Shown piece by piece: positions 31,029 through 60,414 of a DNA stretch of 64,000 bases. Under the pieces are notes generated by a model, which did not search any database, had not been told where the DNA came from, and saw nothing but the letters and a program-made list of their open reading frames with translations. Origin of the DNA: Chlorobaculum parvum NCIB 8327 (GTDB lineage: Bacteria; Bacteroidota; Chlorobiia; Chlorobiales; Chlorobiaceae); the NCBI RefSeq assembly GCF_000020505.1, contig NC_011027.1, positions 2,225,250-2,289,249 of the forward strand, written 5' to 3'. The position numbers were made by a program, and so were the translations under genes. Position 1 is the first letter of the stretch. Every line of letters begins with the position of its first letter.

Positions 31029-31805
31029 ATGCCTAAGAGCTCTGGAATAACTCCGCTTCGACCATCAATTTTCAACGGCATTGCGGGGCTTGTGGCGCTT
31101 CAGACGACCCGCATGGGAGGCATGAGTGCTGCGCCGATGGAGTCGCTGAATTTCGGGACGCATGTCGGAGACGATCCGGAGTGTGTGCGGGAGAATGAGC
31201 AGCGGCTTTGCGCTTTTCTGGGGATCAGCCCCGGGAGCATCGTGACGACCGGGCAGGTGCATGGCACGGAGATTGCCATCGTCACAAAACCGGGCAAGCT
31301 CGATGGATATGACGCGCTTATCACCAATACCCCTGGAATCTTCGTCGGTATCCTGACCGCCGATTGCTATCCGATTTTGATCCACGACCGCCGGACGGGA
31401 GCCTGCGGCGCAGCACATGCAGGATGGCAGGGCACGGCAGGTCGCATCGCCGAAAAGACGGTCGAAGCCATGAGCGAAGCATTCGGAAGCCGTCCGGAGG
31501 ATTGCCTCGCCTGGGTCGGCACCGGCATTTCAAGCGAACGCTACGAAATAGGCGCGGAAGTAGCGGCCCGTTTCGAGCACAGCTACTTCAAGCCATCGCC
31601 ATCCGGCGAAGGGCGGAAACTGCTCGATCTCTCGGCGGCGAACCGCGACCAGCTTCTCGAAGCGGGCATCCCGCCGTCGCAGGTGCAGTGCTCGGAGTTC
31701 TGCTCATACCGGGACGCCGACCGATTCTTCTCCTACCGCCGAGACAACGGCAAAACCGGTCGGATGCTCGCGCTGATCGGGCTCAGGACCTCTTCAACCC
31801 CCTGA
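31029..31805 (+). CDS. pgeF: peptidoglycan editing factor / YfiH-type laccase-domain protein
   Basis: The 258-residue protein has the three conserved histidine/cysteine motifs of the YfiH/PgeF family: TTGQVHGTEIAI, ILTADCYPILI and AHAGWQGTAG, with the C-terminal CSYRDADRFFSYRRD. Members remove wrong L-Ser from peptidoglycan precursors in E. coli, while others act on purine nucleosides (FAMIN-like). The C-terminal end overlaps the last 23 bases of a small minus-strand gene. Confidence 0.9.
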   Translation: MPKSSGITPLRPSIFNGIAGLVALQTTRMGGMSAAPMESLNFGTHVGDDPECVRENEQRLCAFLGISPGSIVTTGQVHGTEIAIVTKPGKLDGYDALITNTPGIFVGILTADCYPILIHDRRTGACGAAHAGWQGTAGRIAEKTVEAMSEAFGSRPEDCLAWVGTGISSERYEIGAEVAARFEHSYFKPSPSGEGRKLLDLSAANRDQLLEAGIPPSQVQCSEFCSYRDADRFFSYRRDNGKTGRMLALIGLRTSSTP

Positions 31806-32195: not shown

Positions 32196-33213
32196 ATGAG
32201 CAACAATGACCTCCTGAACTACTACCACAGGGCCAACGAGCTGGTCTTCAAGGGCCTCATCGAGTTCAGCTGCATGAAAGCCGCTATCGAACTTGACCTT
32301 TTCAGCCACATGGCCGAAGGGCCCAAGGACCTCGCAACGCTGGCTGCCGATACCGCTTCGGTGCCGCCCCGTCTCGAAATGCTCCTTGAGACACTCCGCC
32401 AGATGCGCGTCATTAAACTTGAGGATGGAAAGTGGTCATTGACCGAGTTCGCAGAAGTACATGTTCTCCCCGAACCCGAAAGAGCCGAACCTGCATCAGA
32501 CCCCGGTTGCCAAGGCGATGGCGTTCCTTGCCGATGATTTCTACATGGGCCTTGCCGACGCCGTTAGGGGCCAGAAGAACTTCAAGGGCCAGGTGCCCTA
32601 TCCGCCGGTTACCCGCGAAGATAACCTCTACTTCGAGGAAATTCACCGCAGTAATGCAAAGTTCGCTATCCAGCTCCTGCTCGAAGAGGCCAAGCTCGAC
32701 GGCGTCAAGAAGATGATCGACGTCGGCGGCGGCATCGGCGACATCTCCGCTGCCATGCTCAAGCACTTCCCGGAACTCGATTCGACGATTCTGAACCTGC
32801 CCGGCGCCATCGATCTGGTCAATGAAAACGCCGCCGAGAAGGGCGTAGCCGATCGTCTTCGCGGCATCGCCGTCGATATTTACAAAGAGGACTACCCGGA
32901 AACCGACGCGGTCATGTTCTGCCGTATCCTCTACTCGGCAAACGAGCAGCTCTCGACCATCATGTGCAAAAAGGCGTTTGACGCCATGCAGTCCGGCGGT
33001 CGTCTGCTGATTCTCGACATGGTGATCGACGATCCGGAAAACCCGAACTTCGACTACCTGAGCCACTACATCCTCGGCGCTGGAATGCCTTTCTCGGTGC
33101 TCGGCTTCAAGGAGCAGGCCCGCTACAAGGAGATTCTCGAAAGCCTCGGCTACAAGGATGTCACCATGGTGCGCAAGTACGACCACCTGCTCGTTCAGGC
33201 TGTGAAGCCGTAA
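32196..33213 (+). pseudogene. bchU: BchU, C-20 bacteriochlorophyllide methyltransferase, broken by a one-base frameshift
   Basis: BchU methylates C-20 of the chlorin in chlorosome pigments, making BChl c instead of d. Reading from 32196 the protein is BchU-like through LTEFAE (codon 87). It then leaves frame and ends after 113 codons in unrelated residues. The family sequence resumes one frame over from TAC-ATG at 32458-32461 (YMFSPNPKEPNLHQ, MIDVGGGIG SAM motif I, KYDHLLVQAVKP end). Removing one base from GAAG (32454-32457) restores one 338-codon frame. The O-methyltransferase fold is split, so no active enzyme is expected. This fits strain NCIB 8327, known to make BChl d through a bchU frameshift. 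Confidence 0.93.
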
Positions 33214-33410: not shown

Positions 33411-34709
33411 TCAATTGTCAACCGGACAGTTGCTCTTCCGTCCGTAAAGCTCGTGCGCCTGGCGGAGGATCTCTTCGCGGAAGTCGGGGTGGGCGATGGT
33501 GGCCATCGCTTCTGCTCGCTGGCGGAGGTTTTTGCCGTGCAGGTTGACGATGCCGTATTCGGTCACGACGTACTGCACGTGCGCCCGCGTCGTCACCACG
33601 CCCGCGCCGGGCTTGAGCTGCGTCACGATGCGCGATTCGCCCTTGCGGGTGGTTGCGGGCAGCGCAATGATTGGCTTGCCGCCGGGGGAAAGCGCCGCGC
33701 CGCGGATGAAGTCCATCTGGCCACCGACGCCTGAAAAGTGGCGGTGGCCGATGGAGTCAGCACACACCTGGCCGGTCATGTCGATCTCGATCGCACTGTT
33801 GATGGCTGTCACCTTTGGGTTTTTGCGAATCTCCTTCGTGTCGTTCACGTAGTCCGAGCCGAACATCTCGACCAGCGGGTTGTCGTCCACAAAATCGTAG
33901 AGTTTGCGGCTGCCGATAAGAAAGCTCGCCACGATGATCTCGTTGTGCGTCCTCTTGTGGCGGCCGGTGATGACCCCCTTTTCAACCAGATCGACCACGC
34001 CGTCGGAAAACATCTCCGAGTGGATGCCCAGATCCTTGTGGTTCGTCAGCGCGGCAAGCGTCGCGTCGGGAATCGCGCCGATGCCCATCTGCAGAGTCGC
34101 ACCGTCCTCGACAATCGAGGCGATGTGCTGGCCGATCTGGCGCTCGACGTCGGTCAGTTCGTGCGGAGGAATCTCCGGCAGCGGATCCTCAACCTCGACC
34201 AGCGCGTGAATCTTGCTGACGTGCAGCAGCCCTTCGCCGTGCGTGCGCGGCATGTGGGGGTTGATCTGCGCAATGACGTGTTTAGCGGTGTGCACGGCGG
34301 CCCTGGCCGCATCGACTGACACACCGAGCGAGCAGTAACCGTGCCGATCGGGCGGGGAGACGTGCACCAGCGCCACATCGAGCGGCATGACGTTGTCGTA
34401 GAACAGCGCAGGCACGTCGCTCAGGAAAATCGGAATCGCGTCGGCATAGCCACACTGCACGGAAGAACGAACGTTCCGGCCAACGAAAAAGGCGTTGAGC
34501 CTGAAGCTTTGCTGGTACTCGGGCCTGACGTAGGCCGCGTCGCCCTCGGTGTGCAGACTGACGATCTCGACGTCACGCAACTCATCGGCCCGGCCAACCA
34601 TCGCGGCGACCAGTCGCTGCGGCGTTGCGGCCGCGGTATGAATGAACACTCGGTCGCCCGATTTGATCGCCATGACGGCCTCTTCGGCAGATATTGTCCG
34701 GTAGGACAT
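33411..34709 (-). CDS. acetyl-CoA hydrolase/transferase family (4-hydroxybutyrate CoA-transferase-like)
   Basis: The 432-residue enzyme belongs to the class I CoA-transferase group of acetyl-CoA hydrolase/4-hydroxybutyrate CoA-transferase (Cat1/Cat2-like). The catalytic Glu is in LGIHSEMFSDGV. GIGAIPDATL and the closing GIVNLHGKNLRQRAEAM blocks are conserved. It moves CoA between acyl acids, perhaps acetate and succinate or butyrate. The start has an AGGAGAG site. Which acid it uses cannot be told here; it stands alone before ftsZ. Confidence 0.88.
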   Translation of the reverse strand: MSYRTISAEEAVMAIKSGDRVFIHTAAATPQRLVAAMVGRADELRDVEIVSLHTEGDAAYVRPEYQQSFRLNAFFVGRNVRSSVQCGYADAIPIFLSDVPALFYDNVMPLDVALVHVSPPDRHGYCSLGVSVDAARAAVHTAKHVIAQINPHMPRTHGEGLLHVSKIHALVEVEDPLPEIPPHELTDVERQIGQHIASIVEDGATLQMGIGAIPDATLAALTNHKDLGIHSEMFSDGVVDLVEKGVITGRHKRTHNEIIVASFLIGSRKLYDFVDDNPLVEMFGSDYVNDTKEIRKNPKVTAINSAIEIDMTGQVCADSIGHRHFSGVGGQMDFIRGAALSPGGKPIIALPATTRKGESRIVTQLKPGAGVVTTRAHVQYVVTEYGIVNLHGKNLRQRAEAMATIAHPDFREEILRQAHELYGRKSNCPVDN

Positions 34710-59494: not shown

Positions 59495-60414
59495 TTATCG
59501 TGAATGCAATGGCGGCCCCGCGAGCAGCGCAGCGCCGAAGACCCCCGCGCTGTCACCAAGCAAGGGCGGCAGGAGCGGAATGTCGAACGAGTGGTTGAAG
59601 ACGTTTTTGGCAATCGCCTCGCGCGCTTCCGGGGTGTAGAGCTGGCGGATGTTGCCCACGCCGCCGCCGATGATGACGAGGTCCGGATCGAGAATATTGA
59701 TGACCGCTGCGAGCGCCACGCCGAATTTCGAAACCAGCCGGTCGATGGTCTGCCGCGCGTAGTCGTCGTGACCCGTCGAGGTGGCGATCTCTTTCAGCGA
59801 GGCTTTGCGACCGCTGAGGAGCGCGTAGTGGCGTTCGAGCGCCGGGCCGGAGATGACCGTTTCGACGCAGCCGCGCCGTCCGCAGTAGCATTTCGCCTGT
59901 TCACCCGGCACCGGGTTGTGGCCCCACTCTCCGGCGATGCCGTGCGCGCCGCGCACCACCTGCCCGTCGCGGACGATGCCGCCCCCACGCCGGTGCCGAG
60001 GATGATGCCGAACGCTGTCGCGCCGGGCCGCGCCATCTCGTCGCGCCCCGCACCGAGCATCGACTCGGCGAGCGCGAAGCAGTTGGCGTCGTTGTCGATC
60101 ACCACCTCCATCCGGAGCGCCTCGCGCAGATCGCGCAAGAGCGGCATGCCGTTCAGGCAGACGGTGTTCGAGTTGCTGATAACCCCGTCGCTGCCGTCGG
60201 CTCGTCCGGGTGTGCCGATGCCGATCCGCTCCGGCAGGTCGAGTCCAGCCTTCTCGGCCATCGTTTCGACGAGGCTTTTGATCTGCATCAGGATGTGGCC
60301 GTACCCCTCTTCCTGCTCCGTCGAAATGCGGTGGCGCACGACGGGGCGCAACTCGCTGTCGAGGATCACCCCCTCGATCTTGGTACCGCCGAGATCGATT
60401 CCCCAGCGATTCAT
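59495..60414 (-). pseudogene. ROK family sugar kinase broken by a one-base frameshift
   Basis: Read from 60414 the frame is a normal ROK kinase: WGIDLGGTKIEGVIL at the start and NDANCFALAE. At GTGVG (about codon 143) it leaves frame. The family sequence resumes one frame over with VVRGAHGIAGEWGHNP and the zinc-binding KCYCGRRGCVE, and ends LAAVINILDPDLVIIGGG and FGAALL. The G5 run (59982-59986 as C5) is one short of the six needed for GVGGGIV. Corrected length is 306 residues, typical for ROK. A glucokinase or N-acetylmannosamine-type substrate is possible. The start overlaps the PAP2 stop by four bases. Confidence 0.88.

Follow-up and report, generated by a model that had tools for sequence, protein, structure and literature searches.

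Why does bchU, the gene for the bacteriochlorophyllide C-20 methyltransferase, read in two frames in this stretch of DNA? Within the window, i.e. the whole 64,000-nucleotide stretch analysed, the gene runs for 1,018 bases from an ATG at 32196 to a TAA at 33211-33213, a multiple of three plus one. The first frame begins MSNNDLLNYYHRANELV..., reads as far as LTEFAE and then goes out of frame, meeting a stop at 32535-32537 after 113 residues. On the same strand, the 3′ part of the gene is open in a different frame, in which an ATG at 32461 begins an open stretch of 250 residues. At 32451-32463 the sequence is GCAGAAGTACATG, in agreement with the earlier note, which had placed the frame break at GCAGAAG-TAC-ATG and had called the gene bchU. 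The elements of the locus are as follows:

32196-33213, + strand: bchU, the bacteriochlorophyllide C-20 methyltransferase gene, with one extra base (both fragments match TIGR02716 and PDB 1x19; with the frame restored, the protein is 98% identical to that of the nearest relative).
32454-32457, + strand: GAAG, where the extra base lies; a codon of three bases, GAG, GAC or GAT, stands here in relatives (alignment).
32196-32537, + strand: first open frame, truncated, 113 amino acids, comprising the dimerisation domain and an out-of-frame tail (frame, structure and domain matches).
32461-33213, + strand: downstream open frame, a predicted ORF of 250 amino acids from the internal ATG, comprising the methyltransferase domain (frame, structure and domain matches).

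The answer in which we place very high confidence is that bchU recently gained a single base, that its product is without the methyltransferase domain, that the cells make bacteriochlorophyll (BChl) d and not BChl c, and that the lesion is the one already known from strain NCIB 8327.

The identity of the gene follows from both of its fragments. The 5′ fragment matches residues 22-118 and the 3′ fragment residues 110-359 of PDB 1x19, the product of Chlorobaculum tepidum bchU (recorded as a CrtF-related protein); the C. tepidum gene is the same gene, but it is intact and makes BChl c. Against the NCBIfam BchU profile TIGR02716, the 3′ fragment scores 479.7 bits (profile positions 69-306) and so clears the curated cut-off (276.1 bits), and the 5′ fragment scores 112 bits (positions 1-74). 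The dimerisation domain (PF08100) is found in the 5′ fragment and the methyltransferase domain (PF00891) in the 3′ fragment, in different frames that part at 32454-32457. A working enzyme has these two domains in one open frame, and this bchU does not: it is a broken gene of the BchU family, not a working one. Since the break falls where the dimerisation domain gives way to the methyltransferase domain, the truncated product lacks the catalytic domain. The two fragments match a single solved protein from end to end, and no other bchU found in the 98 Chlorobiales genomes is frameshifted within its match; therefore, the break is not a chance effect of reading frames.

Which base is the additional one? 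Deleting any one of positions 32454, 32455, 32456 and 32457 yields 338 codons followed by a single terminal stop, which bears out the earlier proposal that one base lost from this interval restores BchU. The residue at the joint is then E, or K if 32454 is the base removed. By frame alone, there are 96 positions in 32441-32537 whose single-base loss would reopen the gene; the four-base interval rests on homology, because Chlorobaculum relatives have FA[E/D]YMFS at the joint. An alignment with 11 Chlorobaculum relatives shows the extra base (GAAG) in the window only, all others having GAG, GAC or GAT with no variation in length. The change was probably GAG to GAAG in codon 87. A doubled A is the simplest event, since GAG is the codon seen most often in the relatives, and GAA followed by an inserted G would look identical. 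The site is neither a homopolymer nor a GC-rich run and contains no repeat, and a scan of the bchU region for promoters and terminators gave nothing bearing on the lesion.

How old is the break, and how widespread? The Chlorobiales survey covered 98 genomes, one per species, and bchU was matched in 80 of them. No frameshift or stop was found within the matched stretch of any other bchU in these 98 genomes, some copies being partial and at least several of these lying at contig ends. Of the 80 genomes with bchU, this one alone has the gene in two frames on a single contig; in one further genome (G014) the gene is split over two contigs. The frame-restored protein is 97% identical to that of G019. 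The ratio dN/dS between the frame-restored gene and its three nearest relatives is 0.035-0.044, low in both halves, and lies inside, or close to the lower end of, the range given by pairs of intact genes (0.035-0.121). The frame-restored gene holds neither a second lesion nor a further stop. A dN/dS as low as that between intact genes, together with the lack of a second lesion, marks the insertion as recent; judged from these sequence comparisons, the bchU break is young.

Does the break nevertheless leave some active BchU, made by ribosomal frameshifting or by restart at the ATG at 32461? An in-frame ATG directly after the lesion does open the entire methyltransferase domain, but a product started there would be without the dimerisation domain, and the internal ATG is unlikely to give an active enzyme. 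The other Chlorobiales homologues lie in one frame, which argues against conserved recoding, and a conserved recoding signal was rejected on this ground. NCIB 8327 is moreover described, in the title of a reference in PMC10158934, as a producer of BChl d. Residual BchU activity by either route is thus very improbable.

In the reading preferred here, i.e. a recent one-base insertion that inactivates bchU, the insertion in codon 87 would shift the frame and bring translation to an end at residue 113. Such a protein would keep the N-terminal dimerisation domain and miss the methyltransferase domain. The C-20 of the chlorin ring would consequently be left unmethylated, and the chlorosomes would be filled with BChl d in place of BChl c. 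A compensating frame change nearby would restore BchU and BChl c, and cells carrying it would be favoured in dim light. BChl d rather than c is also the pigment that the earlier note had expected, and the expectation is sustained by the loss of the methyltransferase domain and by the relevant passages of PMC7242693 and PMC10158934.

Is the lesion new? The window takes up the last 64 kb of a single contig of 2,289,249 bases. All 328 residues of this genome's HemB agree with PDB 1w1z/2c1h, the enzyme of Chlorobium vibrioforme. That organism is now named Chlorobaculum parvum, and the taxonomy lists NCIB 8327 as its only strain. For this lesion, the BChl d pigment, the revertant and the effect on growth are taken from the literature. 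Strain 8327d reportedly carries a single-nucleotide insertion, and its BChl c revertant, 8327c, is said to have arisen via a second, frame-restoring frameshift; BChl c producers are likewise said to grow faster at low light. If the revertant is a second frameshift, as reported, reversion need not equal loss of the same base. The review PMC7242693 states that inactivation of bchU in C. tepidum leads to BChl d; for a bchU frameshift in a strain that makes BChl d by nature it refers to Maresca et al. (2004). The reference title in PMC10158934 names NCIB 8327 as a BChl d producer, and a passage of that paper, citing Saga et al. (2003), tells of a BChl c substrain in an NCIB 8327 culture, with a c/d ratio that rises in low light. 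A C. tepidum bchU mutant grew more slowly under all light conditions tested, according to a passage in PMC3415949 that cites Maresca et al.

The earlier note had brought in the lesion of NCIB 8327 as a precedent. A published bchU frameshift does stand behind this claim (a passage of PMC7242693), but not as a separate case: the window is almost certainly NCIB 8327 and hence holds the published lesion, not a parallel one. The break is therefore almost certainly the bchU lesion already published for NCIB 8327 itself. The bchU of Chlorobium vibrioforme 8327d or NCIB 8327 is likewise frameshifted in a natural BChl d producer (Maresca et al., 2004, J Bacteriol 186:2558, as cited in PMC7242693); strain and lesion are most probably identical to those here, with no known difference. 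The bchU mutants made in the laboratory in C. tepidum and C. limnaeum share with it the loss of C-20 methylation and the blue-shifted antenna, and the C. limnaeum mutant yields BChl f, not d (as a passage of PMC3415949 has it).

Could the extra base instead be an error of sequencing or assembly, the real gene being intact? The difference amounts to one base, the rest of bchU is without decay, and the other frameshift of the window, at a run of G, makes an error conceivable. The bchU site, however, is neither a homopolymer nor a GC-rich run, a bchU frameshift has been independently published for a natural BChl d strain (a passage of PMC7242693), and production of BChl d is ascribed to NCIB 8327 (the reference title in PMC10158934). 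Given the reported phenotype and the independent publication, an error at bchU has very little probability.

It has also to be asked whether the site is a switch, a contingency locus at which a base is often gained and lost so that natural populations can turn from BChl d to BChl c antennae and back. The BChl c substrain on record in an NCIB 8327 culture (a passage of PMC10158934) would fit, but the site offers neither a repeat nor a homopolymer on which slippage could act, relatives are invariant in length there, and the revertant reportedly carries a second change and not loss of the first. Such a switch is hardly to be expected, and a contingency locus was rejected as the best reading of a site without a repeat.

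The young insertion ties one base to the pigment, to the colour of the antenna and to competitiveness in dim light, and the lesion contributed to the identification of BchU as the C-20 methyltransferase. Added here are the uniqueness of the break in the order among the genomes searched, the youth of the lesion and the clean absence of bchU from some lineages.

Scanning the window against two relatives, as a control for frameshifts, revealed a second frameshifted gene, for a ROK-family sugar kinase (59498-60414, - strand), broken near 59983-59986. The site reads GTGGGGGCGGC and is one base short at a run of G, G015 and G019 having one base more. The kinase gene lies in one frame in the 20 other Chlorobaculum genomes searched, and its frameshift could be a real mutation or a sequencing error.

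In the window, bchU is flanked by a YfiH-like gene (31029-31805) and an acetyl-CoA hydrolase-like gene (33411-34709). In the sister genus Chlorobium, at least five genomes that are near-complete have the chlorosome protein CsmA and no bchU match: G066 (locus L093), G030 (L094), G070 (L096), G052 (L097) and G032 (L098). No remnant of bchU was found between the YfiH-like and acetyl-CoA hydrolase-like genes of the bchU-less genomes, where the two genes adjoin. The same empty site occurs in G034, yet this genome carries bchU elsewhere, so that loss should not be read from an empty site by itself. In the genomes searched, bchU is missing more often than it is frameshifted, and the frameshift is peculiar to this strain. 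On gene content, the five bchU-less Chlorobium genomes are candidate natural producers of C-20-unmethylated pigments. Duplication is seen as well: contig C115 of G079 (Chlorobiaceae) bears two full-length copies of bchU (L015 and L050), about 4.5 kb apart.
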